From Oscillospiraceae bacterium (lineage in GTDB: Bacteria > Bacillota > Clostridia > Oscillospirales > JAAYXM01), in assembly GCA_015068085.1 (NCBI GenBank), contig SVLF01000009.1, forward strand, positions 1 through 64,000: a stretch of 64,000 nt of DNA, written 5' to 3'. Positions 17,936-47,373 of this stretch are shown piece by piece. Position 1 is the stretch's first letter. Each line of letters starts with the position of its first letter. Both the position numbers and the translations under genes were made by a program. The notes under the pieces were generated by a model that was given only the letters and a program-made list of their open reading frames with translations, was not told where the DNA came from and did not search any database.

Positions 17936-19498
17936 TTATTTGGAATAGCTTTGATACGCCGCCTCATAAACTGCGAGAACATCATTTATCGGAAGCCCTG
18001 AAAGCTCTTCCTGGAATTTGTCCCATTCGGAAAGCGGACGCTGACCGAGAACGAATTTCTGGATATTTTCGCTTACAAAAGTACCGAGGGATGTGCTGAG
18101 GTCTGAAATTTTCTGTGCATCATCAACGCTGAGACTCATATACAGCGTCGGATCGAGTTCGGGATATGTATACTCAAGTATGAAATCGGTTGTTGCTGCC
18201 TGCTCTGCCGAAACAGCTGCAACTGCAGCCTCCGGATCCACTCTGAGATAGGTTCCTATCGTCTGGAAGCCGTATACATTCTTTACCACGTCTCCGTCTT
18301 TGGGCAGAATGAACTTTTTCTTGCCGTCAACCACCTCAAACGTTTCACCTTCCTTACCCCAGCTTATCGTCTGAGAGCCTTCATCCGAATAGAACCAGTT
18401 GACATACCGCATTGCGTTTGCTATGCTTTCTTCGTTTCCGGTATTCAATACACCAAATCCCATAGGATCAAAATTATACTTGTTTACCATTGCAACTCCC
18501 ATACCGTTCTCAGCTACGGGAGGAGCCATTGCCGCAAGCGTGAATTCCGGATTGACACTTCTTGCAAGAGAATTGAAAAAGTCCATACGGGTCTGGTACT
18601 CCGGCATAATAAATCCGCGGTCTGTTGATACAAGCTCCTGCCATGTGGATGTGTTTATGGAGAAGAAATCAGCAGGCATAAGCTTTTCGTCAACCATCTT
18701 CTTGAGGAACGAAACGATATCATACATTACTTCGCTTTCAGTCGTTCCGTAGCTCCATTTTTCGTTTTCAAAGTCATAATAGAAAGAGTAACGGAAATTC
18801 GGCTTCCATGACGAGCCCATAACGTTTATGTTGCTGAAGCCTTCGCGTAAACAGAACGGGTAAGAATCCGGATATAACTGCTTAAGCTCTTTTGAAACCT
18901 CATAAAGCTCATCTATTGTCTTAGGAATTTCGAGACCGTGCTTCTTGAAAATATCCTCGCGATACATCCATGTTCTGATGTTCGTTGCACGCTCCATACC
19001 GTAAATGGGAGCATAGTAAATCTTACCGTCTGTACCTCTGCGGGTGTCTCTCATCCATTGCTCGCTTTCGGGAAGAGAATCCCAGAACGCGTTATAATCC
19101 GCAAGAAACTCTTCATAGTCATCCAACGCAACAAACGCTCCCTGCTCACAGAAGCTTGAAAATGTGTTTGAGCGTCCCTGAAAACCGATTACATCCGGAA
19201 AATGCTCGCGCGATGCCATTATTAAGTTGAATTTAGTTGCAAATTCAGATGTAGGGATTGACGTTACGTTTACAGTTCCGCCAATGGCCTCTTTAATATA
19301 CTGCCAGACCTTCCAGTTTGCATCATACGGCCACGAACTTACGCTTCCGATCGTCACATTCAAAACGGCGTCATCCGGAATAACCTTACCGTCCGGAATG
19401 TCGTAGGATACTTTATTCGACACTGAGCTGTTTTCTCCGCACGCACAAAGCGCGAAAAGCATAACGGTTGCAAGGGTTAATGCAATAAGTTTTTTCAT
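17936..19498 (-). CDS. Extracellular solute-binding lipoprotein SBP1 (ABC sugar-binding, LplA-like)
   Basis: MKKLIALTLATVMLFALCACGE lipobox signal; WPYDANWKVWQYIKEAIGG, FIMPEYQTRMDFFNSL. Paralogous to 33354-34907. Confidence 0.88.
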   Translation of the reverse strand: MKKLIALTLATVMLFALCACGENSSVSNKVSYDIPDGKVIPDDAVLNVTIGSVSSWPYDANWKVWQYIKEAIGGTVNVTSIPTSEFATKFNLIMASREHFPDVIGFQGRSNTFSSFCEQGAFVALDDYEEFLADYNAFWDSLPESEQWMRDTRRGTDGKIYYAPIYGMERATNIRTWMYREDIFKKHGLEIPKTIDELYEVSKELKQLYPDSYPFCLREGFSNINVMGSSWKPNFRYSFYYDFENEKWSYGTTESEVMYDIVSFLKKMVDEKLMPADFFSINTSTWQELVSTDRGFIMPEYQTRMDFFNSLARSVNPEFTLAAMAPPVAENGMGVAMVNKYNFDPMGFGVLNTGNEESIANAMRYVNWFYSDEGSQTISWGKEGETFEVVDGKKKFILPKDGDVVKNVYGFQTIGTYLRVDPEAAVAAVSAEQAATTDFILEYTYPELDPTLYMSLSVDDAQKISDLSTSLGTFVSENIQKFVLGQRPLSEWDKFQEELSGLPINDVLAVYEAAYQSYSK

Positions 19499-19517
19499 TT
19501 TGTTTACTCCTCCGTTC

Positions 19518-22500
19518 TTACTTGCTTTGCAGGGGCATTTCACTGCCCGTTGCTGTATAATCCATTATTCTCTTTATGAGTACTGCCACTTCTGCTCTTG
19601 TTGTATAATCTGCCGGTGCAATAAGCCCGTTTTTGCCGTTGACAAGACCTGCACCGATGAGCGCGGTTACTGCTTCGCGTGCGTAAGGTGCAACGGATGC
19701 ATAATCCTCATTTTTCGGTTCGTCGTAAACGCCGAACTCTACATTGAGCTTCTGTAGTACCCTGCAGACTATCACCATCATATCCTGACGGGTGATATTG
19801 TTGCGCGGTGCATAGCGGTTATCTCCTATACCGCTGACGATTCCTGTATTGCGTGCAATCACAAGTTCAGGTGCGAAGTAGTCTGCGGCAGATACGTCTG
19901 CAAAGTTCTCCGTGTTATCCGACGTGAGCCTGAACGCACGTACAAGCAGCAGTGCAAAGTCTGCGCGGGTTATGTTGCTTGCCGGCGAGAATGTTGTTTC
20001 CGATGTTCCGCGGATTACACCGCCGTCGGCAAGCGCGTTGATTGCGTTCTCCGCCCATGCGTGGTTAGAAAGGTCTGTGAAACGGAGTGTCTCCGTTTCA
20101 CCCGACGCGTCGGGTGCGTTTTCGGTGTTATTTTCATCAGATTTGTTTTCTTCCTGCGGGGTATCGGATGATCCGGCCCCTGCATCAGTACCGGAAGCAG
20201 CTCCGGTATCCGGTGCGGCACCGCCGCCACCGCCTCCTCCGCCGCCGGCAGAACCGTTTGCATTTTCCGAAGAACCATCAGACGGACGGTCGGAAGCTCC
20301 AGTCCCTGCACCATCCTGTGAGGGTTCATTCTTACTGCCCGTTGTGTTACCGTAAACCGTTACAGTAAAGTGAACCGTGCTTTCACGTCCGTCGCTGTCA
20401 CGCGCGGTTACTGCTACGTGGTTATCGCCAACCTGGCTGTCATCCGGTCTCCATGTGAACACGCCGGTTTCCGCATTAAGGCTTGCGCCTCGCGGAAGAG
20501 TTGTTCCGATGTAGGTGATCGACGGTGCATTGTTCTCAATGGGACTGTTCGCCTGTATTCCTACGTTTATCGAGCTTCCTGCCGATGTGCTTAACGTATT
20601 GGATATCGGCTCAAACTCCGGAACACTTCCGTCCACAAACGATGTCGGAATGCGGAAGCTCTGCCCTTCCTTAATATTGTACACATATCCGAGCTCCGTG
20701 TTCTTCTTATCCTTGTGCTTTCGGATAAGTGTAACGGTACCGAGATAAAGACGTACGTTTCCTTCCGCAAGCTCTTCCGCTTCATCGGTCGCGCTCTCTA
20801 TTTTATACACACCGTTTTCGACGGCATCATTATCTACATAGATGTATCTTCCTGCAATATCGGAAATGTCATCGCAATCAATATCAACATCAATGTAGTT
20901 TTCAATGGCAAGCTCCTTCTGGAAGGAAACTACCTTTCCTGTATACGCACCTGTTTTTTCGGTGGCGTCACCGATAACCGTACCGTCATTTATATAACGG
21001 TAAATCACGGCATCATTTCCGTTAAGTGTGTATACACCGACAAATCCCGAAAAATCGAATATATCTTTTTCCTGTCCGTTTTCATCTGTATCCCGTACCG
21101 TATACGTAACCTCATTGTTCGTTGCGTATATCACGTAATCCGTGAAAAGCTCTCCGCCGTTTTCGCGGACAACCTTAACGGCACGGACAATATCTCCCTC
21201 TTTTTCAGTTCCGTGCTTTACGACTGCAGTGACCGCGTCCGTCGATACTATATACGGAGTGTCACGGTACGGTTCAAAAACCGTAGTAAACAGACTGTCA
21301 AGCTTCTCATTTTCAGCTCCCTGCCTTTTTACAAGCACATAGTCCATAGTTTCCGGAAGCATCTTTGTGTCCGACCTTTTATGCATATAACCGCCGGCAA
21401 TTGCGACCTCACTTGCAGCAAAATTATTAAGCTGCGTCATACGGAGCTTAATTCCTTTTCCGTTCTTGAGAATCTTGCGATAGTCCTGTACATCAAACTC
21501 AACCGTAAACTTTTCTTCGGGCGAAGCGTCACGGCGGACATTTTTCAGCCACGTATATCCCCGCGGATATCTTGTTTCATACTCCCACGCATCCATTGTG
21601 TCCGGGTCTTCTCCGAAAGCGGCCTCCGGACCCGCATAAGAGCCCACAATATCATTGCCTTTCTCATCCTGTACCACGGGATCCTGAACTAACGAAAGCC
21701 CTTCTACCGGATATGCGTTTTCTGCCTGCGAGTGGAAGCTATAGGTATGCGTGTTTCCTCCGGTTACACGGAAAAAATCTATCGCATATTCAACATCGTC
21801 GTTTGCTTTAACGGAAACAAGTGTCCGTCTGTAGTTTTCCGTTTCGTTATATGCCTCTTTGTAGTCAACATCCACAAGCTTCACATCACCCGCATCATCA
21901 AAATGAAGCGGAGTTCCGTGTATTTTCGTCCGGTTTACAAGCTGCTCCTTTTCATTGACAACTACCGTGTTATGCGAAAGCGTTGTCCGCGTCCACTGCA
22001 GACGGCTCGGAAGATAGCTTGTTGTTTCAGGATATCCCAGATCCGGAGCAATGTCAAGTCCGAATGCATCCATACCAAGATTAAGTCCGTCACGGTGTGA
22101 ATGCTCCGCACCGATTCTGCCGAACCAAACCCAGAAGTCGCGCATATTGTTTACTTCCGTCAAAGCACTTGCCGAGCTATGATATTTTCCTCCGCGAAGC
22201 GCTGCAAATCCGTAACCGGTGAGCATCCCGCTTCCCAGACTGAAATCCCCTTTCTCGTCTATATACGCCAGAATATCCTCGTCTAAGCCCTCCGGATTTT
22301 CCGAAAAGATTCCGTAGGTTACTCCGTCCAGATTTCTGCCGGACATTTTATAGATATACTCTGCTACTTTCTTCTTATATTCTTCGTCGTCAAGATTCAT
22401 AAACAGGTCAAACCACGCAGACGTCGAACCGTTAACGCTTACACCCGCTGTTTCTCCCGAGTCGGCAATTGTCGGATGCTTGTTTTCAGTCAGAAGAATA

Positions 22501-25500
22501 TTCACCTGCGGATCGTGCATTTTCAGGAACTTCACAAGCTCATAAGGCTGATAATTTCCGCTTCCCTTGTATTTTGCCGCCGCACGTGCGAATACCGAGA
22601 AATTCGAAACCCAGCTTGTATTGTATCTCGGAGAGGCTTCATTTCCCATTCCGTCGCGGTCAACATCGTCAACCAATGTGGAAATGAAATTTCCGCCGAC
22701 GATATTTGTTTTCTCATCACCGGTATTCGTTCTGTATATCCATTCCATGATCTGATCGGTTTCCGGCTGCTTGTCTATAACAATTGCCGCAACCGCCGCA
22801 ACGCCCTGCGCATTACCGACATTCCCGACCATTCTGCCGTCCTGCAGCATCTCAAAGGATGCCAGGATAATTCCCTCTTCCCAATTCTTCCAGATTTTTG
22901 CAGAGCTTGATTTGTCATTTTCCAGCCCAAGCTTCTCTGCTCTTTTCGACAGCTCTTTTATCAGCTGCGGGTCTTCAAGAACGGGATAAAGCATATCCGC
23001 CGCGAATATGGTAGCTTTTCCGAAATACGACTCGTTTGTTCTTCCGAGAGCTGCTCCGTATCCGGCGCCGCCGTGTGTGTTGAGGAATTTATCCTTGAAA
23101 TAGTACATATCAAAATCCGGATAAAGATCTGCCGCACGGTCAAGCAGGAGTGCACCTGCCCGCCCATATTTCACATCATTTGTATACAGATATGCTTCAG
23201 CAAGGGTCTCCACCGTCAGATAAAGCTGTTCCCAGATTCTGAGGTTATACAAAGCTATATACCCTATGCGTTCTTCAAGACCGTCGGCATAGATACGTCC
23301 GGGGACATACCCCCATCCGTCATCTACGCCCCACATATCTCCGCCCTGCCACAGGACCTTACCGTTTTCATCCTTGTATGTACCGAGATCTGCTCCGCCG
23401 TTTTTGTCATTCCACGTTATCTTCTCGCCCCATGGGTCAGTGTTGCTTTTTCTTATTTCCTCGTAAAGCTCGTTATAGAGATACCCGTCCGGATTTCCGT
23501 ATCCGTAGAAGATGAACCATTCCGGTGTGTTTGCCTTTGCCGGCTTTTTGCATGTGCATTCCTCTCCGTCCGGATGGAAAAGCATCTTGTGGTGAGCCTC
23601 TCTTGCACGGTCTACACTGTAATACCCCTGTCTGTCAAGCCCGAGCTCACGGAAGCTTTCAAAATCGTTTGTCGGGAAAAGGCGCTTACACGCGTTGCAC
23701 TGTATCTTCCACGGGCGTTCAACAAAGTTGTACGATGTTCCGTGTATGTTGTAATAATCTTCCCCGCAATAACGGCAATAATTATAATAGTCATCGCCGC
23801 GCACACCGATCTGTCTTCCGCGCGGAAGCCCCTCGCCGGTCATTTGCTCCAGCATTGCGTCGACCAGCGGAAGCACCTTATCCGCATCTTTTATTGCGCT
23901 TTTCTGAGTTTCCTTTGCCCATTCATACTTTTCAATGTTTTTCTGCGCATTCTCACGCATTTCATATGTGTAATATGTAGGCTCGTCTTTTCCGTTGTCA
24001 AGGATAACGGTTACGTTCCTCTCAACGGATATCGGAGTTCCGTGAAGGTCTGCCGTCACTTCAAGTCTGAAGCTTCCCTCTCCTGTTATTTTGAGCATAT
24101 TTCCGGAAACTTCCACAACGCCTTCGCCGTTTACGGAATCAACCGTAATATTCTCTTCCGTAAGCGGAATATCTATCCTGTTATCGCTGTTCATCACCGC
24201 CACAAGCTTCAGAAGCTTTTTTTCGCGGACGTATAATATGTCATCGACATTGAAATCGATTTCCCTTATACCAGTATTGTCAATTACATTGAACTGAACA
24301 GTCTCGCTCAATTCACTTTCTCCGTCGCTTACCGTTACCTTTATACGCGCCTGCCCGTTGCCGACACCTCGCACAAGGCCCGTTCCGGTTACCGTGGCAA
24401 CGCTCTCGTCAAGCGAGCTGTAGCGGATATCCAAGCCTTCCAAAGGAACGGCATTTCCGTTAAGCTTTCTTACAATCAGCGAAAGCTGTGCCGTTGCTTC
24501 AAATTCGTTTGTATTGTATTTTATCTCGTATGTATCGGCGCTTATATTAAGCTCTCTGATTCCGTTCATTCCGTCAAGAGTGAAATTCCCCGCAAGCGCA
24601 CGCAACGTACCGTCCGGAACTGCATCTTCCGCCTCCTCCGGATTTTTTACTACAGGGCAGAAAACGAGATAGTATTCTCCCGCCTCCAGGACACGCTTTT
24701 TTAAAGGCGCCGTCTTCATTGTAGCATCTGCGGAAGCGCTGTCCGTACAAAGCACAGAGCCTATCATATTTTTCGCGGTCAGGTTTTCGCTTGTAAGTAC
24801 ATTTTTGTCTTCCTCACCGGCAACCACCGGAATGAGGTGATAGTTCATATAAACGTCAAACGGCATCGTTTTTCTCTGTCCGTTTTCATTAACGGCAAAG
24901 TCTCCGTCAATTTTATACTGCGTGGTATTCTTGTACGTGCCGTATGAAACCTTCGGCTGATATATCCCGCCTTCTTCAACACGGATTTTTATCGCCCACC
25001 AGTTATCGCGCATTGCACGGATGGCAATACCGCGCCCTTCCATATAAACGAGATCCGCACCGCTTGTTGTCGTTGTGTTCACTCCATAGTCCGTCCACCA
25101 GTACGACAAACGGCGGTTACCGGCATATGCCCACAAATTGTTGTTGGTTTCATATGTAAAGTCGGTAAACAAAATGCTTGTATCCTTTGAATTTCCCATA
25201 CGGCTTGCTATGTCGTATGTAACAACAACATCCGGAATAGCCGGAGGTTCAACCGTAAGATGCAGTGTTTCCGATACCGACACTCCTTTGTTTTCAACCG
25301 TCACGGTTATATCGGTTTCACCGCGTCCTATGCGCTCAATAACGCCGTTTTTGTCCACGGATATCAGTGTTTCATCATATCCGGAGTATATGGCCTCCGC
25401 ATCTTCAATAACCTCTCCGTCCGACATATATGCGGCCACGTCAAGGTCATACGCATCGGCGCCCAGCACATCGATCTCCATGGGGACACCCTCGGCATTT

Positions 25501-26252
25501 ACGCCTCCGTCAAGAATAAAATCTCCGGCGATGCCGCGCAGGGTTGAGGTGGTTTTATCATATCCTGCCGGCCTCTGCGGAAAATTAACCGTAACAGGAA
25601 CAAAAACAAGATAGTATTCACCCTTCTTAAACTCACGGGGCGCGAATTCATCCGTTGAAGCAATAACCGATGTTCCGTCTCCGCCGCTCCCGTTTGTACA
25701 ATTGACGCTGCCGATAAGATTCTGCGGCACAATAAAGGCGTCGCTTTTAAGATCCGTGCTCACGCCCGCATCGCTTACCGGAACAAGATAGTAATTCATT
25801 CTCACTTCAACCGGATCCGTAGTTATCATGGGATTTGTTCCCGTTGTATCTGTGAAGTACACATTGTTCTTGTAAGTTCCGTAATAAGCATACGGCTGAT
25901 AATAACCGGTTTTCGGCACATTTATCTTTATTGCCCACCAGTTGTTATAATCCGAGCGGATGGCGATACCGCGGCCTGATCTGTAAGCAAAATGTGAACC
26001 GCTTGACGGAGGAACATCCGTCCCGCCGCTCGCCCAGCTGTATGCCGATCTGCGGTTCGCGGCATATTCCCACATTTTATGATTTTTTGCATATTTAAAA
26101 TCAGAAAATTTGGCGCTTGAATTTGCCATGCTTCCGGAAATGTTATATACAAGCTTCACTCCCGAAAGCTCCGGCGCTTCTTCTGCAGATACCGAAGGAA
26201 ATAACGGTATAAGCAGGGAAACCGCCAGAATCAATGATAAAATCCGTTTCAT
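19518..26252 (-). CDS. S-layer-anchored heparinase II/III-type polysaccharide lyase, multidomain, 2244 aa (module A)
   Basis: Signal peptide; two N-terminal repeats of about 220 aa; BIG2-like Ig domains; lyase toroid (NIEKYEWAKETQKSAI); CxxC-CxxC segment YCRYCGEDYY...WKIQCNACKRLFPTNDF; heparinase II/III-like RIGAEHSHRDGLNLGMDAFGLDIAPDLGYP and LSHNTVVVNE; putative-Ig domain; Gly-rich linker; three SLH repeats. Confidence 0.85.
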   Translation of the reverse strand: MKRILSLILAVSLLIPLFPSVSAEEAPELSGVKLVYNISGSMANSSAKFSDFKYAKNHKMWEYAANRRSAYSWASGGTDVPPSSGSHFAYRSGRGIAIRSDYNNWWAIKINVPKTGYYQPYAYYGTYKNNVYFTDTTGTNPMITTDPVEVRMNYYLVPVSDAGVSTDLKSDAFIVPQNLIGSVNCTNGSGGDGTSVIASTDEFAPREFKKGEYYLVFVPVTVNFPQRPAGYDKTTSTLRGIAGDFILDGGVNAEGVPMEIDVLGADAYDLDVAAYMSDGEVIEDAEAIYSGYDETLISVDKNGVIERIGRGETDITVTVENKGVSVSETLHLTVEPPAIPDVVVTYDIASRMGNSKDTSILFTDFTYETNNNLWAYAGNRRLSYWWTDYGVNTTTTSGADLVYMEGRGIAIRAMRDNWWAIKIRVEEGGIYQPKVSYGTYKNTTQYKIDGDFAVNENGQRKTMPFDVYMNYHLIPVVAGEEDKNVLTSENLTAKNMIGSVLCTDSASADATMKTAPLKKRVLEAGEYYLVFCPVVKNPEEAEDAVPDGTLRALAGNFTLDGMNGIRELNISADTYEIKYNTNEFEATAQLSLIVRKLNGNAVPLEGLDIRYSSLDESVATVTGTGLVRGVGNGQARIKVTVSDGESELSETVQFNVIDNTGIREIDFNVDDILYVREKKLLKLVAVMNSDNRIDIPLTEENITVDSVNGEGVVEVSGNMLKITGEGSFRLEVTADLHGTPISVERNVTVILDNGKDEPTYYTYEMRENAQKNIEKYEWAKETQKSAIKDADKVLPLVDAMLEQMTGEGLPRGRQIGVRGDDYYNYCRYCGEDYYNIHGTSYNFVERPWKIQCNACKRLFPTNDFESFRELGLDRQGYYSVDRAREAHHKMLFHPDGEECTCKKPAKANTPEWFIFYGYGNPDGYLYNELYEEIRKSNTDPWGEKITWNDKNGGADLGTYKDENGKVLWQGGDMWGVDDGWGYVPGRIYADGLEERIGYIALYNLRIWEQLYLTVETLAEAYLYTNDVKYGRAGALLLDRAADLYPDFDMYYFKDKFLNTHGGAGYGAALGRTNESYFGKATIFAADMLYPVLEDPQLIKELSKRAEKLGLENDKSSSAKIWKNWEEGIILASFEMLQDGRMVGNVGNAQGVAAVAAIVIDKQPETDQIMEWIYRTNTGDEKTNIVGGNFISTLVDDVDRDGMGNEASPRYNTSWVSNFSVFARAAAKYKGSGNYQPYELVKFLKMHDPQVNILLTENKHPTIADSGETAGVSVNGSTSAWFDLFMNLDDEEYKKKVAEYIYKMSGRNLDGVTYGIFSENPEGLDEDILAYIDEKGDFSLGSGMLTGYGFAALRGGKYHSSASALTEVNNMRDFWVWFGRIGAEHSHRDGLNLGMDAFGLDIAPDLGYPETTSYLPSRLQWTRTTLSHNTVVVNEKEQLVNRTKIHGTPLHFDDAGDVKLVDVDYKEAYNETENYRRTLVSVKANDDVEYAIDFFRVTGGNTHTYSFHSQAENAYPVEGLSLVQDPVVQDEKGNDIVGSYAGPEAAFGEDPDTMDAWEYETRYPRGYTWLKNVRRDASPEEKFTVEFDVQDYRKILKNGKGIKLRMTQLNNFAASEVAIAGGYMHKRSDTKMLPETMDYVLVKRQGAENEKLDSLFTTVFEPYRDTPYIVSTDAVTAVVKHGTEKEGDIVRAVKVVRENGGELFTDYVIYATNNEVTYTVRDTDENGQEKDIFDFSGFVGVYTLNGNDAVIYRYINDGTVIGDATEKTGAYTGKVVSFQKELAIENYIDVDIDCDDISDIAGRYIYVDNDAVENGVYKIESATDEAEELAEGNVRLYLGTVTLIRKHKDKKNTELGYVYNIKEGQSFRIPTSFVDGSVPEFEPISNTLSTSAGSSINVGIQANSPIENNAPSITYIGTTLPRGASLNAETGVFTWRPDDSQVGDNHVAVTARDSDGRESTVHFTVTVYGNTTGSKNEPSQDGAGTGASDRPSDGSSENANGSAGGGGGGGGGAAPDTGAASGTDAGAGSSDTPQEENKSDENNTENAPDASGETETLRFTDLSNHAWAENAINALADGGVIRGTSETTFSPASNITRADFALLLVRAFRLTSDNTENFADVSAADYFAPELVIARNTGIVSGIGDNRYAPRNNITRQDMMVIVCRVLQKLNVEFGVYDEPKNEDYASVAPYAREAVTALIGAGLVNGKNGLIAPADYTTRAEVAVLIKRIMDYTATGSEMPLQSK

Positions 26253-26276
26253 CTGCGTGCTCCTTCCTTTTTATTA

Positions 26277-26302
26277 TAGCGGAGAGGGAGCCCTCTCCGC
26301 TA
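26277..26302. other. Intercistronic hairpin upstream of the module A lyase gene
   Basis: tagcggagaggg-ag-ccctctccgcta perfect 12-bp stem between the 618-aa gene and the lyase RBS. Confidence 0.6.
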
Positions 26303-26319
26303 CAGGTATGTTTTGGATG

Positions 26320-28176: not shown

Positions 28177-28270
28177 TTTAAAACCCCTTTTCTGTTCATT
28201 TCTTTTATTATAAGCGGCGGAAATAAGTCTACCTTACTTTAATTTTATCTTATATGTATTTGAAATCAAA

Positions 28271-29452: not shown

Positions 29453-29510
29453 ATTATACTCTTACCGCATGAAAAAGTACATAGACTAAAAAGTTCAAAA
29501 CTTGTACTAT
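29453..29510 (-). promoter_or_regulatory. Module A operon promoter with operator-like motif copy 2
   Basis: Minus-strand TATAAT (29453-29458), 17-nt spacer, weak -35 TGTACT (29476-29481), motif aaaaagtTCaaaacttgtactat (29488-29510) directly upstream. Confidence 0.5.
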
Positions 29511-29525
29511 CTAAGAGGTTTTACT

Positions 29526-30494: not shown

Positions 30495-30523
30495 TTGACA
30501 TTTGTGTGTTTATGTGGTATTAT
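30495..30523 (+). promoter_or_regulatory. Sigma-70-type promoter for the deoR-phosphatase-MFS operon
   Basis: TTGACA, 17-nt spacer, TATTAT. Confidence 0.65.
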
Positions 30524-30547
30524 GTGGGATATGGAGTTGGTGTATTG

Positions 30548-37900: not shown

Positions 37901-40900
37901 CTGCTACTTCGGCATAACTGTTCAGATTTTGCGCTGTTTCAAGCAAATTCTCCGGCCATATTGAGTTGTATCCCATTGTGGACTCATTCCCGAAGCCGTC
38001 GCGGGTTACAACATCTACAATCTGGGCAAGTACGTTCCCGCCCGTACACCATGCTTCACCTTTGGCTGTACTTGCATATCTCGTTCCGTTTTGCATTACG
38101 AAATCTATCATTTCCTGCGTTTTTGGCTGAGTATCAAGCACGATTGCCGCTTTTGAAAGTAAATCCTGCTTAAAACCGTAATTTCCGGCAAACTGATCTC
38201 TTTTTGTTCCCTCAAAAATTTCGATAAGAAAGTTTTCTTCAATATTGCGCCTTATGGCTTCTCCGTCTCTTTTGTCGTTTTCAAGACCGTATTTTTCTGC
38301 CTTTTCCGCGAGATAGCTTACAACTTCTGCCCTGTCATACAAATCAAAGAAAACGTCATATGCATCGACGATATCTTCGGTGAAGAATGCCGCATCCCAT
38401 GTATTTCCCAAAATTTTCCCATCTCCAAATCCACTGACAGAAGGGAAAAACGGGCCGTAATATTTCTCTGTATCATAATCCGGATAGAAATCGGCAACTC
38501 TGTCGATAAGCTTTGCACCGGCTATTCCATACTTCTCATCGCCGGTGTATATATACGCATCTCTAAACGCTTTCAGAGATGTGTGAACAAGACCTTCATA
38601 TCCTTGCAAATTCAACCAGATACCAAAGAAATTATAATACGGAATGTAGGCATGCGTTTCACCGGTTCCATTCGGAGACAACCTTCCCGTCTCATATCCA
38701 AAGCCATCGTCGACGCCCCAGACATCTGCGATATTTTCCGGTTCTTTCGGAAGCTTTCCCCATCCGTGCGTTATCGGATCACCTGTCCTCGGATCTTTCC
38801 CGGTGTCACGAAGCTCAGAATATAAATCATTTTTCAGATAGCCGTATCCGTAAGTTCCGCCAAACATCTCCTGGTGTCTTTTAAGCCCGAGTTCTCGGTC
38901 AAATTCCCCTCTCTCATTAAGAGCAAGCTTATAAAACGACTCGAAGTCATTTGACGGAAAAAGGCGCTTGCAATCCGGACACTGAACCTTCCACGCCCGG
39001 GCGAGCGGATCTACTTTAAAACCGTATCTTCCATACTTTTCCCAAACATCACACCCGCAATAACGGCAATATCTCGGCTCCGGATCATCTTTTTTGCAGA
39101 GATAGAAGGCGCGAGGAAGCCCATCAGAGGTAATTGAGTCGTATATTAAATCAACATGCTGTAAATATTTATCAGCAGTTTTAACGGCTGTGTCTTTCAG
39201 CTCCTTTGCCCATTTGTATTTTTGAACATTCTCACGCGCTGCAACAATTTTCTCCGGTGTGTAAAAGCTTGCTGCAACCTTTCCGCGGCGGACGGATACA
39301 GAAAGCTCTGCATAACGGGTTACGCCTTCAAGCGTTACGGCAACAGCTATTTCCGCAGTGCCTTCTTCTCGCGGGAATATGTGTCCGTTGGAAGAAACCT
39401 CAACAACATCTGTGTTGTTGCTCTCAAACGTAATATCAGCATCTGCAACATCAAGCGTTTTTCCCGTATCGTCGAAAGCCGCAACGCTTATGTCAAAGCC
39501 GTCAGATCCATATTTAATAACCTGTGACGGTACACTCAGGGAAACGGTTGTAAATCCGCTTGACAAAACGATTACCTTTGTTTCGGCAACCACACTGTTT
39601 CCGGCAAGTGTTACGGTTGCACGAACCATCGTTTCGCCTGCATTTACAGCAACGAGCTTTCCGTTCTCAAACTTTACGATGTTTTCGTCGGTGTCGTAGC
39701 TTACGGTAAAATCATCGGCCGAAATCCCAGCACCACTTTCAAGGTATGCATCGATCTCAGGTTCGGCTGTTTCTCCCGGCTTCAGCTGATACACACGCTC
39801 GCCGAACTCGGCGCGAAAGATTTTCTCATCCGTAACCGTTATTGTGCACGTCTCGCTTTCTGCCTCATCACCCAGGCACCATACACGTACACCTGCAGTA
39901 CTGCTTCCGGTTAATGCAGCACGTAGCTTTCCGTCACGAAGTTCCAGAGCATCCCCGCCGAGCACAAGCTCATATCCTGCGTCACCGCTCTCATTTCCCA
40001 AATCATCCGGGCCGAAAACATATTCTCCTCCACTTGTAAGGGCTACGACGACGGAATATGCAAGCGACTCTCCGACGGCAAGAGTTTCACGCGCCGGTAA
40101 TGTCTCCACTTTTTCAATCTGCGGCTTTTCCTCAAGATATTTCAAAGAGAGTCGTCGCAGATATTGCTTTATTCCGTTTTCTCCGCCCTTCCCGTAGGTT
40201 CGTACCTTAAATTTGTGAATGCCCTTTTTTAAAAATACCGGATTGAGTTTTACAACCGGCTTTATTGAGAGAAGCGTATCCTGCGGACCATACATACCGT
40301 AATCACCTATGTATTGTCCGTCTATATAGAGATGCGTATAACCACCTTGCGGCGCGAGCGCACCCATAAAGCTCGGCTCATACCATCCGTCGTAATCTAC
40401 GGAGATATTTATAACGGTGTCTGCTTCTCTCCCCGGAACTATGCTGTTAATTCCGACTATCATTGCATAACCGTTGTTGCAGCAAAGCCCCGGATTTTTT
40501 GATACATTCGAAACAATATAATTCGAGGTATTTTCAAGGTCAAGCTCCCATCCGAGCTTTCCTACCGTTGCCGCTGTTGCCGCCACATTTTCAGGCAGCG
40601 CTTGGAAGTCGTAAACCTTATCCTTTGGCTCTTGCGGGATAACCTCTATGAAAAAGACTTCACTGTCAACGCTCTGACCATCCTTTGTCACCGTAGCAAT
40701 AACTCCCGCGTTTCCTTCCTTCTTACCACTTACAGTACCGTCTGCAGATACGTCAAGATATTCCGCATCTTGCAAAGTTGCAGGCGAAAAGCTGAGTGTA
40801 CACTCCACGCCGTCTATATAACTTTTCATACCACTTGTATGATACGCCCTTGCGGAAAGCTTCTCGGAAAAGCCCTTTTCAACTCTTGGATTTCCGCTTA

Positions 40901-43484
40901 TAACAACACGCTCAAGAGGAGTCCCGTCCGTTACACTCAGGGAAAAGCTTGTTTTTTTCGTCGCGTCCCCGCTCACGGCGTACACTGTAATAAGTGTTGT
41001 TCCCGACGCTTTTGCCGTAATTTTTCCGTTTTCGTCAACTGCTGCCACTGCAGGGTTTTCACTCTCATAAAGAAGCATATTCCCTGCCGCGCTCATATCC
41101 ACTTCGCTGCCTGTTGTGTCATAGCAAGTTACCGATACGTCTGCGCTTGCACCGACCTCAAGAGTCTCCGGTGCCTCTGCCACGACCTCATTAAGCTTAA
41201 CGTCAAGTCCCGAAAGGGAAACAGATATAACACCCCTCTGCGGTACACCGCCAATCGTCAAATCGGCATAGACTTCGCATTCGCCGTTGCCAACTGCCGT
41301 GATTGTGCCGTAGTCGTCGACTGTTGCAACCAATGGGTCAGATGTCGAATACTTAAAAGCAAACGGTTTAGCCGGGTCGCCCAGTACAATTTCTTTGCCT
41401 GTTCCGGATATTGCCACCGCTGTTGTTTTGAAGGTATCAAAGGTCTTAGCGCCTTCAAAGCTCTTTTCCGGCAGGAAATTCACTTTATCAAAGGTCACCT
41501 CGTGAAACGCGAGGTTTGAAAGCAGCATTTCCGAACCGAGAGAATTCGTCACCCTTGTAAGAATAGTGGCATCACATGCCATGCCTTCTGCATCCCAGTT
41601 GACATATATGGGATCAGTTCCGAAGATCGTCCACGGCTTATCTCCCTCAGTTTCCTCCCATATCTGCCATGTTGCTTGGTCATAGCTTGTAACAGCTGTT
41701 CCCGTGCGCTTATAATAAAACGGGTTTATAAGTATCTCGGGAAAAGTTTTTACATTCTGAATCTTTGCAAGTCCCGTAAATTCATAGATTTTCCCGATCT
41801 CCATGTTTATAAGCCCGTTGTGAGCTTCTTCATTTTCTCCGTTGTTATAAAGGTTCGCTTGCTCAATTCGTATAATTTTTATGCCCGTAGGCTCAAGATT
41901 CGGCTTATCATCTACAACAAGCTTTAAGATGCGTGTCTTCTTGCCGGTGATTTCTGATTTCGTATCTAAAAACTCATAATCAAACGTATCTCGAGTCAAA
42001 TTTCTGGTAGCTTGCCACAACGCCTGAGTAACCTTCAGACCATTATAAGAGTTGTCATTGAAATATACGCCCCGCTCAAATTCACCGTGACGCACCCCGT
42101 GCCTTGTGAAGAGATTTTCGCCGACAACGGCAACGGAAACCGTTTTGCTTATCTCATCATCACCGAGGCTTGCCGTGACCGTTACATCTGCACGACCCAT
42201 TTTGAGAGCCGTGAATTTTCCATCGTCCTCTGCAAGGATTTCGTCATCGTCAATCTCATAGGTAAGCTCAATATTTCCTCCGAGCGGATTTCCGTCGGCA
42301 TCGGTTACCTTCAGGAAATTTGAAGTTCCCACCTCAATATATCCGAGCGCAAAGCCTGCCAAAATCTCGTCAGGAAGGCTTTCCGCATCTGCAGGCGCTG
42401 TGACAGAAAGCGGTGCTCCCGCGCTTGTGATTCTAACGCCGCCTGCGGAAATCTCGGCATATATCTCACACTCTCCGCCGCGCTTTGCGTATACCTCGCC
42501 TGTTTTTTCATCAACATCAGCGATGCGGCTATCGGAGCTTTTATATGTTATCTCCGCATTATCAAGAGCAAAAGCTTCTCCTAGCGTATCAAGCGCAGAA
42601 ACAGAAGCATATGTATATTCTCCGGCGGTCAGGCTGCTTTCATCAAGTGTAGCCACGGCACTCTGAAGCTTTCCAAGCTTCTTTCTGAGCTTGATATTCG
42701 CAAGCTGAAGCTTGTTGTTCACATTCGCACCGTTTAATCGCACAACCAAAATATAGTGCGTGGCTTCGCCGATATCAAGTCCTTCGATAGTGGGCGGTGC
42801 AGCAGGCGTAATGCTTCCCGAGAAAACTCTGTTTATATCCTGGATATAATAGCTACCGGAATCCTCGCCTGCTTCATAGGGTGCAAAAAAGATATCACAG
42901 CTCGGCGGTACCACTGTACTGGCAAATTTGAATGTAAGCTCGTGCGTCCCGCGGGTCTCCGGTGCATCAAGCTTTAAGGCAAACCACGCGTCTTCAAGCT
43001 GAGCCTGATATTGTCCGGTTTTTTGCGTCCCGCCTGCCGCAGCAGCAAGTGTTTCTGCCCATTTCAATGCCGGTGAGAACGAAAGCCCGGGATCCATTCC
43101 CTGCAACAACCTGAGACTTGCACCTTTGATCTCGTCATACGGTGCCGCTGCCCAATCAATTTCCCTGCTTCTTATCCACGTTACATCAGTTTTTGAAATA
43201 ACATCGTGAAGAGTTATCGATGTTGTTGCTTCATCAAAAAACTGCTTTATGTTATCAGAGACGTCAAAGCCCTTCCAGTTTCGTGTATTTATTGAATACC
43301 AATCTCTTCCGGTAACCGTCGGGTCTATTGAAGTCGTCTTTTTTAACGTCGTTCCGTCTGTAACAAAACTATAGACCGTCTCTACAAAAAGCTCATCCTC
43401 ATCTGCAGCACTTGCAAAAGGGATAACCGGCGCAAGTGAAAGGCAGATACTGAGCGTTAAGATTGCGGCGATTATTCTTTTCAT
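34995..43484 (-). CDS. S-layer-anchored heparinase II/III-type polysaccharide lyase, giant multidomain, about 2829 aa (module B)
   Basis: Start at MKRIIAAILTLSICLSLAPVIPFASA (signal peptide) behind aaggag; several BIG2-like repeats; YCRYCGCDVW...WKVQCPDCKRLFPSNDF; SHKHHDGMNLGIDAYGLNMAPDHGYP, SHNTVVVNDEHQ; putative-Ig domain; three SLH repeats. Confidence 0.85.
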   Translation of the reverse strand: MKRIIAAILTLSICLSLAPVIPFASAADEDELFVETVYSFVTDGTTLKKTTSIDPTVTGRDWYSINTRNWKGFDVSDNIKQFFDEATTSITLHDVISKTDVTWIRSREIDWAAAPYDEIKGASLRLLQGMDPGLSFSPALKWAETLAAAAGGTQKTGQYQAQLEDAWFALKLDAPETRGTHELTFKFASTVVPPSCDIFFAPYEAGEDSGSYYIQDINRVFSGSITPAAPPTIEGLDIGEATHYILVVRLNGANVNNKLQLANIKLRKKLGKLQSAVATLDESSLTAGEYTYASVSALDTLGEAFALDNAEITYKSSDSRIADVDEKTGEVYAKRGGECEIYAEISAGGVRITSAGAPLSVTAPADAESLPDEILAGFALGYIEVGTSNFLKVTDADGNPLGGNIELTYEIDDDEILAEDDGKFTALKMGRADVTVTASLGDDEISKTVSVAVVGENLFTRHGVRHGEFERGVYFNDNSYNGLKVTQALWQATRNLTRDTFDYEFLDTKSEITGKKTRILKLVVDDKPNLEPTGIKIIRIEQANLYNNGENEEAHNGLINMEIGKIYEFTGLAKIQNVKTFPEILINPFYYKRTGTAVTSYDQATWQIWEETEGDKPWTIFGTDPIYVNWDAEGMACDATILTRVTNSLGSEMLLSNLAFHEVTFDKVNFLPEKSFEGAKTFDTFKTTAVAISGTGKEIVLGDPAKPFAFKYSTSDPLVATVDDYGTITAVGNGECEVYADLTIGGVPQRGVISVSLSGLDVKLNEVVAEAPETLEVGASADVSVTCYDTTGSEVDMSAAGNMLLYESENPAVAAVDENGKITAKASGTTLITVYAVSGDATKKTSFSLSVTDGTPLERVVISGNPRVEKGFSEKLSARAYHTSGMKSYIDGVECTLSFSPATLQDAEYLDVSADGTVSGKKEGNAGVIATVTKDGQSVDSEVFFIEVIPQEPKDKVYDFQALPENVAATAATVGKLGWELDLENTSNYIVSNVSKNPGLCCNNGYAMIVGINSIVPGREADTVINISVDYDGWYEPSFMGALAPQGGYTHLYIDGQYIGDYGMYGPQDTLLSIKPVVKLNPVFLKKGIHKFKVRTYGKGGENGIKQYLRRLSLKYLEEKPQIEKVETLPARETLAVGESLAYSVVVALTSGGEYVFGPDDLGNESGDAGYELVLGGDALELRDGKLRAALTGSSTAGVRVWCLGDEAESETCTITVTDEKIFRAEFGERVYQLKPGETAEPEIDAYLESGAGISADDFTVSYDTDENIVKFENGKLVAVNAGETMVRATVTLAGNSVVAETKVIVLSSGFTTVSLSVPSQVIKYGSDGFDISVAAFDDTGKTLDVADADITFESNNTDVVEVSSNGHIFPREEGTAEIAVAVTLEGVTRYAELSVSVRRGKVAASFYTPEKIVAARENVQKYKWAKELKDTAVKTADKYLQHVDLIYDSITSDGLPRAFYLCKKDDPEPRYCRYCGCDVWEKYGRYGFKVDPLARAWKVQCPDCKRLFPSNDFESFYKLALNERGEFDRELGLKRHQEMFGGTYGYGYLKNDLYSELRDTGKDPRTGDPITHGWGKLPKEPENIADVWGVDDGFGYETGRLSPNGTGETHAYIPYYNFFGIWLNLQGYEGLVHTSLKAFRDAYIYTGDEKYGIAGAKLIDRVADFYPDYDTEKYYGPFFPSVSGFGDGKILGNTWDAAFFTEDIVDAYDVFFDLYDRAEVVSYLAEKAEKYGLENDKRDGEAIRRNIEENFLIEIFEGTKRDQFAGNYGFKQDLLSKAAIVLDTQPKTQEMIDFVMQNGTRYASTAKGEAWCTGGNVLAQIVDVVTRDGFGNESTMGYNSIWPENLLETAQNLNSYAEVAEEDNLLKNPKFIKMLKIYTPTRLAGRRRANIGDDGGTAGEDGRMNNSLLLAGWQATKDPYFAQCLYLNSGGALEDLHYDVFTKNPESIQDEVNSAIEAYGEYDESKSSASTGYGFAALRDGTRFESRDTSVVNDTMRDWWMYFGTAVSHKHHDGMNLGIDAYGLNMAPDHGYPAEMTGEGAVTRTQWTAGTVSHNTVVVNDEHQTRGLKTADLLHFDDSGEVKVMDADGAEFYPMHTSTYRRTVVSVDVDDTVSYALDFFRVVGGDEHVYSFHSQSEKANMEGVTMVPQPMGTYAGADIPFGDTTRYKLDNGYNWLYNVERAKNPKTGTFMADFKVERLRPAMKSYPKKDWHLRLTMLNDFEVSEVALADGKAPTTKGNPEKFRYLLVRRSGENLDTLFTTALEPYIGQSAIESLERVEVTRADGKPMSPSEPVAAIKVKLNSGRCDYVIYAANNEVTYNVGELFEFCGFVGVYTLDGQGEVVRSYLMDGTKLGQTEAEYAALKGRVKGFTQGLPKGTVNEFTGATEYKSFIELELDEDYESLDCNSIIGNVINIKNDGVDNGSYIIESAEKNGRKLTVGVGDVSLIRSHKASSNKEKEYIYNIAEEQVAQIPLATYKSEAPEFTPVADAAVSAGSSISIPISATSESGKELTLSGTVLPRGMSLNKETGVLTWKPDDSQVGDNHVAVTASDGDLASTVRFTITVYGRTTGTGTSTDKETSGDKEVTGNSGAAGSGGSGGGGGAAPSDKPDDTTNTDQTDTSDEKDDDESLLLEEKVPSGDEADEVEKPQFTDLGNHSWAADAINTLAAADIIRGTSETTFAPAANITRADFALLLVRAFNLTSDNAENFADVSASDYFATELAIARNTGIVNGIGDNKFAPRNHITRQDMMVIVYRALQKLNVGFGIYDEPQYPDFDTVAPYAKEAVTALIGAGLVNGKNNLIAPTDYTTRAEVAVLIKRILDYVKK

Positions 43485-43524
43485 TTTCGGAATTCTCCTT
43501 TCCCGTTCTTCTTTACCTATGCGT

Positions 43525-43548
43525 TGGGCGGACAAAATTGTCCGCCCA
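43525..43548. other. Intercistronic hairpin upstream of the module B lyase gene
   Basis: tgggcggacaa-aa-ttgtccgccca perfect 11-bp stem between the 570-aa gene and the lyase RBS. Confidence 0.6.
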
Positions 43549-43555
43549 TGCTTCT

Positions 43556-45268
43556 TTAATTGCCATAATTTATTTCTATTGCATCGGTGTAAATAACCTT
43601 GTCGTTATACATCACATATCCGCGGGCATAAAGCTCCATATCCTGATCGCCCTCCGGTGCTGCCGTGAGCTGACCATGACCATCTTCTTCAAGATACTTT
43701 GCCGTTGCCTTTGAATATGCGCTTTCCACATTAACCTTTTCAGTCTTTCCGAAAAGAATACCGGCTTCCTTGATTGTATACTCTCCCTTGTCATACTCAA
43801 GCATAAAGTTTTCTCCACCGTCACTCTCGAGCACTGCAAGCGGGATTTTGTCTGCTATGTCTTCGCCGTTGTATTCATCAATATCGTCGGGAGCTTTAAG
43901 CCATGTGAAGAACTCGTAATTTTCGCTGTATGTTACAAGCTTTCCGTTTCTTGTCCAGCCGGTTTCTGAACCGTTGTTCTGAACCGCTTGGTCGTAATCG
44001 TCGACAGCAGTGTACTGTGCCATTGCCTTTGAAATGCTCTCGGGAATTTCAACTGTTGCATCCGTAAACGTTGTCTTGTTGTCCTCAAGAATCCAATTTA
44101 AAAAGCTGTATCCCGTAAGCGTCGGCTGTGTCGGGAGCGCAGTAACCTTTCCGTCCGTTACTTCTTTGCTGTCAACAAACTCACCGTTCCAGTTGAAGAA
44201 GTCGAGATACTTTGTATCTTCTGTAGCTTCTGTATAAATCGCGGTAAGGGCGATGTTTGCATAGGGGTTTATTGTTACGGTCTTCTCTGAGCTATAGTAT
44301 CTGCCCGTTGCGGCGCTGCCGAGCACCCAATAACGGAAGGTGTAGCCTTCTTTTTCACCTGCAGTTGCGGAAATTCCCGTTCCTGCAGTCACAGAACCGA
44401 AAAGCTTATTATTTTCTCCGCCGGTTACCGTTACGGCATCAGAGTCTTCAACGTTGTCAAACACGCCGTAGTTTATGGTTGTAGGTGCAGCAGTTTCATC
44501 CTTGGTAAGGGTGATGTTTGCGATTTGAATCTTGTTGTATCCGCTCTTACCATTTAATCGTATACCTAAAATATAATAGTCTGCTTCATTTTCAATCTCA
44601 ACATTTTCAATGACAATCGTCTGAGAATCAGCATATTTCATACTTGTATTTTGAGCAATTCTATTAATATCCTTTACATAATAGCTTCCAGAATCTTCTT
44701 CCTCCTCATACGGTGCCCAAAAGATATCACAACTCGGTGCTATTGCAGTTGATGTCAAGCCAAAGGTCAATTTATATCTTCCTGAAGTCTCCGGAACATC
44801 AAGTTTAATTGCAATCCATGCATTGTCAAGATGCCCTATCTGTGTAGTGGTTGCGTCTATTTTTAACGACATATATGATTGGAAGATAATACCTGCGTCT
44901 TGTCCCTGCAATAATCTGGTTTTTGTATATCCAAGTGTAGTCTCACTCGAATTGTAATAGTTCTGACTTGTCGAACATTTTATATCATTATCGAAAGCTA
45001 CTTCTGTTGCTTCTTCGGCAAAAAAACGTTTTATATTGTCAGAAGCATCAAAGCATTTCCAGTTTCGTGTGTTTGTCGAATACCAACATCCATTAGCAGA
45101 GGTCACTGTAGGATTAAGAGGTATTGTCCTTTTCAACGCGACTTTGTCGCTGGGGACAGTAAAATCATACACCGTCTCATTCTCATTTGCGGCACTTACT
45201 GCCGGAAGAAATGCCATCACCGAAAGGCACATGCTGATTGTTAAAATCGTTGCTAAAAATCTTTTCAT
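43556..45268 (-). CDS. Secreted protein with lyase-like N-terminal domain and Listeria/Bacteroides-type repeats (module B partner, 570 aa)
   Basis: MKRFLATILTISMCLSVMAFLPAVSA signal peptide; N-terminus parallels the module B lyase N-terminus (WYSTNTRNWKCFDASDNIKRFF); EGYTFRYWVLGS and LTGYSFLNWILED repeat-like segments. Confidence 0.72.
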   Translation of the reverse strand: MKRFLATILTISMCLSVMAFLPAVSAANENETVYDFTVPSDKVALKRTIPLNPTVTSANGCWYSTNTRNWKCFDASDNIKRFFAEEATEVAFDNDIKCSTSQNYYNSSETTLGYTKTRLLQGQDAGIIFQSYMSLKIDATTTQIGHLDNAWIAIKLDVPETSGRYKLTFGLTSTAIAPSCDIFWAPYEEEEDSGSYYVKDINRIAQNTSMKYADSQTIVIENVEIENEADYYILGIRLNGKSGYNKIQIANITLTKDETAAPTTINYGVFDNVEDSDAVTVTGGENNKLFGSVTAGTGISATAGEKEGYTFRYWVLGSAATGRYYSSEKTVTINPYANIALTAIYTEATEDTKYLDFFNWNGEFVDSKEVTDGKVTALPTQPTLTGYSFLNWILEDNKTTFTDATVEIPESISKAMAQYTAVDDYDQAVQNNGSETGWTRNGKLVTYSENYEFFTWLKAPDDIDEYNGEDIADKIPLAVLESDGGENFMLEYDKGEYTIKEAGILFGKTEKVNVESAYSKATAKYLEEDGHGQLTAAPEGDQDMELYARGYVMYNDKVIYTDAIEINYGN

Positions 45269-45330
45269 TGTAAATTTCTCCTCCTAAAAATTTATATTAT
45301 ATATTTAAAAGCTTTAAGCTTTTACTTTCT

Positions 45331-46374
45331 TTAAACCTCAAGCCCCATTCCGCGAAGGTCTGCAACAACGCCGAGCTTTTCAGCTTCATACAGCTTCCAT
45401 ATAACGCGGAGCCCCTGCAGTGCTGAATATGCATCGGTCTGAGGCTTCTTTTTGTTTATTACGCAATCAACAAAATGGGCTACCTCGTGCTGGGTTTCCT
45501 TGCTTACGCCGTTCGGACGCTTCCATACAACTCTGCAGCGCTGCGGCTCCATATCCTCCTTGCCCGGCTCATGCTCAACAAGACCGTCGTAAATTCTTAC
45601 CTCTCCGGACTCAAACTCAAACTCAAGCAGCCCCTTTTCGGTCATAATCTGGAAGTCTGCTCCCATACGTGTGCCGCGTGCACCCCACGTTGCACCGTGA
45701 TAGCCGATAGCTCCGTTTTCAAACTTTAAGATAACAGCGCTCGTTCCTTCCTTGAGCAACCACGGCGTTCCGACATTCGTGCCGAAATGCGAACCGGAAA
45801 CGGGGTTTCCGCAGAACCACAAAAGAAGGTCTATGTAGTGACAGCCGTGGGAGAAAAACTGACCGCCGCCAAGGCATGCCGATGCGCCCCAGTCTGTCTC
45901 CTTAAGAACGGTAAGCTGTTCTGTCCATATTGACATCTGCATTATTTTGCCGAACTCTCCGCTGTCCACAAGTTCCTTAAGCTTAACAATGCCCTGCCAG
46001 TAGCGCACCGGATATGCGCACATGAGAGTTACTTTCATTTCCTCACATACGGAAATGAGCTTTAAACACTCTTCCTCCGTATTGCACAGTGGCTTCTCCA
46101 TAAGAATGTGTTTTTTGTTTCTTGCAAAAAACACACCGCACTGATAATGGAGGTGGTGCGGAAGCACAACAAGAACGGCATCAACATAATCAACCATTGT
46201 TGTGTAATCCGTTGTCACGTATGGACTATTGAGGACTGTTGCAACATTCTCTGCTCTTTCTTTTGCCACATCGCACACGGCGGTGATTTCAACATTATCA
46301 AGAAGTGAAATTCCCGCAGCATGGTTTTTCATCATTCCGCCGCAGCCGATAAGCCCCAACCTGATTTTTTCCAT
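45331..46374 (-). CDS. Gfo/Idh/MocA family oxidoreductase (module B)
   Basis: IRLGLIGCGGMMKNHAAGIS, ILMEKPLCNTEEE, SHGCHYIDLLLWFCGNPVSG; paralog of 28309-29370. Confidence 0.92.
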   Translation of the reverse strand: MEKIRLGLIGCGGMMKNHAAGISLLDNVEITAVCDVAKERAENVATVLNSPYVTTDYTTMVDYVDAVLVVLPHHLHYQCGVFFARNKKHILMEKPLCNTEEECLKLISVCEEMKVTLMCAYPVRYWQGIVKLKELVDSGEFGKIMQMSIWTEQLTVLKETDWGASACLGGGQFFSHGCHYIDLLLWFCGNPVSGSHFGTNVGTPWLLKEGTSAVILKFENGAIGYHGATWGARGTRMGADFQIMTEKGLLEFEFESGEVRIYDGLVEHEPGKEDMEPQRCRVVWKRPNGVSKETQHEVAHFVDCVINKKKPQTDAYSALQGLRVIWKLYEAEKLGVVADLRGMGLEV

Positions 46375-46425
46375 TTTTTTCTTCCTTTTTAAAATTATTC
46401 TTGACTTTATCAGTCTTTATATAAT

Positions 46426-46466
46426 ATTATAAAATAAAAAGGTAAAAATGTATTTACACTATTTTG
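46426..46466 (-). promoter_or_regulatory. Module B divergent promoter region with operator-like inverted repeat
   Basis: Minus-strand TATAAT at about 46426-46431; inverted repeat GTAAA-aatgta-TTTAC at 46442-46457 followed by acactatttt. Confidence 0.4.
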
Positions 46467-46494
46467 CATAATTACATTGAAAGGCGGCAAGAAA

Positions 46495-47373
46495 ATGCTA
46501 AAGTTCAACGGAATTCCGGTACCGGATTTTATTACAATTGAATCTTTCATTTCCGTTTTTCGCCAAAAGCATGAAGATCTTATATACGAGGAATGCTACA
46601 ATATCGGTGAAGCGCACAACTTCTGGGAATTTCTGTATCTGGAGGAGGGCGAAATCAATGTTCTTGTCGACGGCGAGCTTCATTGCTTGCTCCCTGGACA
46701 GCTTATTATCTATGCGCCTTTCTCATTCCATAGTGTTTCAAGCTCGTCGGATGCAGTTATCAACGTTGTAAGCTTTTCCTGCAAGTCAAGCTCTCTTTCC
46801 GGCCTTTCGAACATCGCAATAGACCTGTCAAGCGAGCAGGTTTCAGCGCTCCGCAGCATTATAACTTTGAGTGAGGAGTGTTTTTTTCTTCCTACTGAAA
46901 TATCAGACGAACGAGGAATGTTTCTGCGCAAGGATATTCCGAATCTTGCATTGCAAAAATTGGCAAAGCTTGTTGAGCTGTTTCTCATTGACCTTTGCCG
47001 GAATTATTCACCGGTCAGCAAAGCAAACACCGATGACAAAAATAACCCTCTTGATGAACAGTTTGCGGCTCTTACAACATTCCTGTCCTACAATCTGCAC
47101 AGGTTCTTGTCGGCGGAAGAAATCAGCTCTGAGCTTTCAATCAGCGTTTCAAAGCTCTCAAAGCTATGTAAGGCACAGTGCGGTTGCGGTCCGATAGACT
47201 ATTTTCTCTCTCTTAAAATAGGCGCGGCGAAAAGAATGATAAGCGAAAAGCGCTTAAACCTTACGCAGATATCTGAAAAACTCGGTTTTTCATCCGTCCA
47301 CTATTTTTCAAGACTGTTTAAGGCGAAAACCGGCATAACTCCGTCCGAGTACGCCAAAAATGCAGAACATTGA
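46495..47373 (+). CDS. AraC family transcriptional regulator (module B)
   Basis: C-terminal HTH pair LSAEEISSELSISVSKLSKLCKA...LTQISEKLGFSSVHYFSRLFKAKTGITPSEY; paralog of the module A regulator. Confidence 0.92.
   Translation: MLKFNGIPVPDFITIESFISVFRQKHEDLIYEECYNIGEAHNFWEFLYLEEGEINVLVDGELHCLLPGQLIIYAPFSFHSVSSSSDAVINVVSFSCKSSSLSGLSNIAIDLSSEQVSALRSIITLSEECFFLPTEISDERGMFLRKDIPNLALQKLAKLVELFLIDLCRNYSPVSKANTDDKNNPLDEQFAALTTFLSYNLHRFLSAEEISSELSISVSKLSKLCKAQCGCGPIDYFLSLKIGAAKRMISEKRLNLTQISEKLGFSSVHYFSRLFKAKTGITPSEYAKNAEH

Follow-up and report, generated by a model that had tools for sequence, protein, structure and literature searches.

Within the window analysed here, a stretch of 64,000 nucleotides located on contig C65 of a 3.17-Mb MAG (145 contigs, 87.8% complete, 2.5% contamination), two modules, A and B, carry the same five gene types in the same order and orientation, each including a giant surface lyase and a solute-binding protein (SBP). 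The question raised by this arrangement is whether one ancestral five-gene locus was copied whole and then gave two substrate-specialised versions, as the preliminary description had proposed, and by which route the products of the lyases would enter the cell. The genes concerned are as follows.

Module A, 13622..14806, minus strand: amidohydrolase, with a 69% copy at locus L075; probably a module member
Module A, 14817..15893, minus strand: SGNH/GDSL esterase; probably a module member
15914..17797, minus strand: U627, 627 aa, located after SBP1, with a weak GLMA_2nd/GH42M match
Module A, 17936..19543, minus strand: SBP1, lipoprotein, AlgQ2-like CUT1 solute-binding protein of clade 1 (SBP_bac_1, E 2e-12)
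Module A, 19518..26252, minus strand: lyase 1, 2,244 aa, with N-terminal repeated binding-type domains, a heparinase II/III-like core (aa 760-1775, window 20928-23975), an Ig-like domain and three SLH repeats
Module A, 26320..28176, minus strand: 618-aa secreted non-catalytic surface protein, with a variable head (N-terminal) and a conserved 300-aa C-terminal tail
Module A, 28309..29370, minus strand: Gfo1, Gfo/Idh/MocA oxidoreductase (domain scan)
Module A, 29502..30398, plus strand, divergent: AraC1, cupin and AraC HTH regulator (domain scan)
Module B, 33354..34907, minus strand: SBP2, AlgQ2-like lipoprotein of clade 2
Module B, 34995..43535, minus strand: lyase 2, a 2,846-aa frame (core at window 36375-39269)
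Module B, 43556..45268, minus strand: 570-aa surface protein, with a C-terminal tail common to about 30 proteins
Module B, 45331..46374, minus strand: Gfo2, Gfo/Idh/MocA oxidoreductase (domain scan)
Module B, 46477..47373, plus strand, divergent: AraC2, cupin and AraC HTH regulator (domain scan)

The frame of lyase 2 opens at a TTG, and the ATG of its 2,829-aa version corresponds to residue 18. A separate plus-strand cassette, encoding a DeoR regulator, a type-I phosphodiesterase-like enzyme and an organophosphate-type MFS transporter, lies between the two modules (window 30506-33269), and a secreted 434-aa protein with a weak SLH match adjoins module B (window 47459-48763).

The domain scan of both lyases identified a heparinase II/III-like C-terminal domain, Ig-like domains and three SLH repeats (PF00395, E 1.9e-27 and 4.4e-31, three stretches each), and that of the 618-aa and 570-aa proteins identified Big_2/InlB-type repeats. 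The pairwise identities, ranging from 34 to 61%, bear out the paralogy of all five gene types: 61% over 350 aa between the Gfo proteins, 47% over 516 aa between the SBPs, 41% over about 1,700 C-terminal residues between the lyases, whose SLH anchors are far more alike than their catalytic cores, 35% over 283 aa between the AraC regulators, and 34% between the 618-aa and 570-aa proteins, in the C-terminal half only. The lipoprotein SBPs and the SLH lyases likewise agree with the earlier view of both modules as surface degradation loci. That view had also stressed an organisation unlike SusC/D and a local lack of permeases, and both points stand, in that the domain scans found no SusC/SusD domains among the module genes and no permease genes occur inside or near either module.

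The proposal of a whole-locus duplication found no support: for four of the five gene types, the nearest relatives are encoded at other loci, either of this genome or of the genus. When the closest-relative comparison that had been suggested for this proposal was carried out, Gfo1 and Gfo2 were the only mutual-best pair of the five (next best, 27%), whereas the SBP, lyase, AraC and 618/570 pairs were not. The nearest relatives of SBP1 are clade-1 copies in several loci (70-71%), and that of SBP2 is found at L061 (81%); lyase 1 is nearest to a lyase at L059 (52% over the full length) and lyase 2 to those at L047 and L058; AraC1 and AraC2 are nearest to regulators at L059 and L041, respectively; and the 618-aa and 570-aa proteins are nearest to proteins at L128 and L059 and at L047 and L045, respectively. 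Locus L059 is itself composite: its lyase (52%), its 618-like protein (51%) and its copy of U627 (67%) are nearest to module A, and its SBP belongs to the module B clade, with 61% identity to SBP2 and 48% to SBP1. Copies of U627 adjoin other SBPs as well (L059, L063, L065 and others).

A copying of the entire locus would fit the shared order and orientation, the five paralogous pairs and the mutual-best Gfo genes; nevertheless we regard it as very improbable, since the four remaining gene types have nearer relatives at other loci, the lineages of SBP1 and SBP2 are deep and found throughout the genus, with a patristic distance of 1.42 between the two in a tree of 113 SBPs, and the genome encodes about 55 SBPs and 74 lyase frames. 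Moreover, the DNA similarity among SBP copies ends at the gene borders: only 15 of 778 SBP-overlapping matches extend more than 150 nt upstream and 3 of 778 downstream, as exemplified by a match of 89.6% over 1,601 nt with flanks of 22 and 15 nt. Block duplication is also contradicted by the absence of a correlation between SBP distances and the distances of the adjacent lyase cores (Mantel r = -0.007, p = 0.50, n = 21 loci), while the positive control, core versus anchor within one lyase, gave r = 0.295 and p = 0.001; the comparison was run on lyase cores alone, as whole frames would mix fragments. The dN/dS check that had been advised for the pairs was uninformative for SBP1/SBP2 and AraC1/AraC2, the synonymous sites being saturated. 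The loci are thus mosaics of exchanged genes, and the description of modules A and B as two substrate-specialised versions of one system should be widened to two among about 55 loci.

The extent of the SBP family was determined with SBP1 as the query, which gave 57 matches in its own genome, corresponding to about 55 genes, as one gene was counted twice and three were cut by contig ends. About 25 of these copies are 57-71% identical to SBP1 and are therefore nearer to it than SBP2 is (47%). In the tree of 113 sequences, most own-genome copies represent old lineages common to the genus, accompanied by a few recent amplifications, and four further MAGs of the genus carry 16, 9, 22 and 4 copies. 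The homology to AlgQ2 (1j1n) is significant (E 1.7e-24, residues 68-531), and the SBP_bac_1 match lies above the cut-off; weaker relatives are 5gub and 5xs8, annotated as family-1 extracellular solute-binding proteins, whose group, we believe, includes the glycosaminoglycan binder Smon0123. A lipobox was recognised in 108 of 113 full-length copies, and the remaining five seem to be over-extended N-terminally. The own genome contains 54 SBP_bac_1 matches, namely, 53 of these SBPs and one PotD, and, of 18 genomes from other families, just one is matched by the A1 profile of the family at the level of E 1e-25. The predicted models of SBP1 and of the lyase 1 core, for which the alignment input consisted of two window sequences only, had pLDDT values of 33.5 and 31.0. 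In one genus member with only one lyase-core match, four SBP genes are arranged in tandem (L107, G004:C11:18300-28007).

Numbers of this size could in principle arise if contigs belonging to several strains or species had been wrongly binned together, and the fragmentation of the assembly (145 contigs, 88% complete, 2.5% contamination) and the several copies cut at contig edges would be in keeping with such an origin. We nonetheless consider an artefact of this kind extremely unlikely, since the full-length copies are 35-92% identical to one another, unlike near-identical strain variants, several copies occur together on each of the long contigs C52, C37 and C131, housekeeping genes flank the copies in the window, and the pattern is repeated in the four other MAGs of the genus.

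The content of the loci was read from the stretches around the SBP copies, which hold divergent AraC genes, SLH lyases, accessory surface proteins, Gfo genes and assorted sugar enzymes. A divergent AraC gene lies upstream of 25 of 53 SBPs, and in both window modules; among the 48 SBPs with a readable upstream gene, a giant lyase is found directly upstream on the same strand in 14 cases and within two genes upstream in 23. Besides Gfo1 and Gfo2 of the window, Gfo/Idh/MocA and AP_endonuc_2 genes repeatedly adjoin SBPs, and a weak match of Gfo1 to glycoside/disaccharide 3-dehydrogenase models gives a hint of a 3-keto-glycoside route. An 11-member family of about 444 aa (L050:3245-4579 and ten like genes), resembling the N-terminal part of neutral ceramidase, also occurs beside SBPs. 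The genes of 290-305 aa located behind SBPs were considered as hidden permeases and rejected: they gave no BPD_transp_1 matches, and their recurrent representatives are creatininase-like, sugar-isomerase-like and similar enzymes.

A search of the own genome with the lyase core gave 106 pieces, merged by hand into 74 open frames, some of them cut at contig ends, which cover 516 kb, or about 16% of the assembly; 58 of the 74 frames encode at least 2,000 aa. Positions of catalytic type are kept among 42 cores (Y1210 and N1211, 41/42 each; H1384, 42/42; H1427, 41/42), and the core profile matches PL17 alginate lyases (E 4e-12), which suggests that the giants are putative active lyases. Across the genus, lyase and SBP numbers do not track each other, as in genome G002, with 79 lyase-core matches and 9 SBPs. 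Among the surface proteins, the 618-aa protein shares its C-terminal tail, at 94% identity, with a protein from another species that has an unmatched N terminus, and the 570-aa protein has an N-terminal head that is 44% identical to the N terminus of the adjoining lyase 2 and has almost no other relatives in the set. These proteins therefore follow a head-and-tail logic that resembles the mosaicism of genes in the loci.

As for import, the absence of permeases from the modules finds its best explanation in a single pair that is encoded at another place in the genome and shared. Six BPD_transp_1 permeases are encoded in the own genome, namely, an AlgM1/AlgM2-like pair (contig C143, L085:8262-10319; matching AlgM1 of 4tqu at E 9e-84 and its AlgM2 at E 6e-56), a PotB/PotC pair and two single genes; no other sugar ABC permease was recognised among them. 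An OB_MalK ATPase, MsmX-like (E 5.5e-141), occurs once in 4 of 5 genus genomes, the own copy being on contig C85. AlgM1 is present exactly once in each of nine family genomes belonging to four genera, with SBP counts of 57, 16, 9, 22, 4, 8, 3, 2 and 6 in the same genomes, and in all nine it stands in a BigAraC-AlgM1-AlgM2 arrangement with no SBP adjoining. Conversely, the 110 SBP loci (1.25 Mb) contain no AlgM1/AlgM2 homologues. In other families of the order, used as a control, an SBP lies alongside in 9 of the 14 AlgM1/AlgM2 loci read (family f6 left out), and each genome has 5-10 SBP_bac_1 matches versus 4-8 AlgM1 homologues. In family f6 (L160, L161 and L176), the pair has no adjacent SBP and 3-4 SBP_bac_1 matches occur per genome, perhaps as a smaller hub. 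When the permease was used as a query against named genomes, only two records were found, both Oscillospiraceae MAGs from goat gut, namely, RGIG3186 from the rectum and RGIG2118 from the colon, which are the closest named relatives of the organism. As the MAGs are fragmented and 77-95% complete, a second permease may be missing from any one of them.

On these grounds, we consider it probable that the SBPs encoded at the many loci deliver to a common CUT1 importer, in a hub-and-spoke system of which modules A and B form two spokes. To each spoke would belong a separate AraC regulator and a lipoprotein SBP of the AlgQ2-like type, often joined by accessory surface proteins and by a giant heparinase-like lyase with an SLH anchor. 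This lyase would cleave an acidic glycan on the cell surface, the adjoining SBP would capture the released oligosaccharide, and every SBP would dock on the single AlgM1/AlgM2-like permease pair and hand over its ligand there for uptake, the shared importer being powered by the single MsmX-like ATPase. The large AraC-type regulator adjoining the permease may govern the hub. The mosaic state of the loci would follow from growth of the family by copying and exchange of individual genes, such as SBP genes, lyase heads and cores, and regulators. In its full form, which we favour with some reserve, the proposal holds that some 55 exchangeable SBPs, copied singly among about 50 polysaccharide loci, all serve one permease pair and ATPase under a dedicated regulator, and that new diets are met by swapped SBPs or lyase modules, without new transporters.

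The SBP copies could also be read in a SusD-like manner, that is, most of them would have lost their transport role and would hold the polymer near the lyases as surface glycan-binding proteins, a few would serve the permease, and the products would enter through, e.g., MFS symporters. That the copies are surface lipoproteins on a cell with a Gram-positive-type S-layer anchor, that no permease is near any of them and that AlgQ2 is itself an oligosaccharide binder would all agree with this, and MFS and other carrier genes, one MFS gene lying between modules A and B, occur in the genome and could import products. Against it, 30 diverse SBPs share many invariant positions over the entire protein, close copies beside unrelated lyases show dN/dS values of about 0.05-0.11 (about 0.06 for L036/L037), as expected under purifying selection, and the AlgM1/AlgM2 genes and the large AraC are retained in 9 of 9 genomes without a linked SBP. 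We thus hold the loss of transport to be rather unlikely. With respect to the shared importer, the absence of co-divergence between SBPs and lyases is also compatible with a broad or shared SBP specificity, and the unequal numbers of SBPs and lyases across the genus find no explanation in the hub model alone.

If the shared importer is confirmed, it would parallel, in a Gram-positive setting, the expansion of SusC/D but follow another economy: a swarm of interchangeable receptors, together with giant surface lyases, would determine the breadth of nutrients, and the oligosaccharides would pass one gate. It would then become possible to ask how large a set of receptors a single ABC permease can accommodate, whether these receptors compete for it and what holds a docking face constant while the pockets vary. 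For annotation, it is a warning that the number of SBPs does not equal the number of transporters. The 74 lyase frames, 16% of the assembly, also constitute an unexplored enzyme set from ruminant-gut relatives.

Among the known systems, the AlgQ1/AlgQ2-AlgM1M2-AlgSS alginate importer of Sphingomonas sp. A1 and Smon0123-Smon0121/0122-Smon0120 of Streptobacillus are built from the same SBP, permease and ATPase families. In the aligned sequences, SBP1 shows no counterpart of the AlgQ2 segment DPNGNGKADE, which we take to be the calcium loop of AlgQ2. Two SBPs of Sphingomonas A1, AlgQ1 and AlgQ2, already share AlgM1M2SS (PMC9314435). Acidic glycans and lyase products are handled there, as they would be here. 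AlgQ2 grips the non-reducing end, and the reducing end lies open on the side of the permease (PMC8449061); such an orientation would be convenient for a variety of products passing a single gate. Different from Sphingomonas A1, about 55 SBPs are found here, none of them encoded near the permease and many of them adjoining extracellular lyases with an SLH anchor, and the ATPase gene is unlinked.

In the Gram-positive polysaccharide utilisation loci (gpPULs), a degradative enzyme (of putative activity in our case), a regulator and an SBP are likewise combined in one locus. However, the published definition requires a transport system within the locus (PMC5320581), and in R. intestinalis XB6B4 the gpPULs comprise 35 carbohydrate transporters, 26 of which are ABC transporters (PMC5320581), whereas the loci described here are SBP-only, lack a complete transport system and coexist with one sugar ABC permease pair per genome. 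They work like gpPULs and yet, lacking a transport system, fall outside the published definition. The difference from the SusC/D PUL of Bacteroidota lies in the absence of a SusC/SusD pair. The 1,000-aa core shares with the heparinase II/III-like PL17 alginate lyase group the C-terminal domain with the HxH, SHNT and DG..E.S..YN motifs, but it is only distantly related, is embedded in SLH proteins of 2,000-3,200 aa and recurs in 74 frames of one genome.

A large surplus of receptors over membrane parts is also known in the TTT family, where the orphan TctC/Bug receptors of Bordetella and Rhodoplanes far exceed the membrane parts and a sharing of distant partners has been proposed (PMC11452294); those systems, however, are unrelated secondary transporters, with no tie to surface polysaccharide lyases and regulators. 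In Firmicutes, one MsmX/MsmK ATPase serves sugar importers that have their own permeases (PMC5730181, PMC12838199), with two SBPs per permease at most (PMC12838199), while here the permease pair, too, appears to be shared. The open-access full texts yielded no earlier report of an expansion of SLH-anchored lyases and orphan SBPs, or of an ABC importer fed with polysaccharides in this way, which is weak evidence of absence. Since the sharing of a permease is already known on a small scale from AlgQ1 and AlgQ2, the novelty of the present system lies in its scale and layout.
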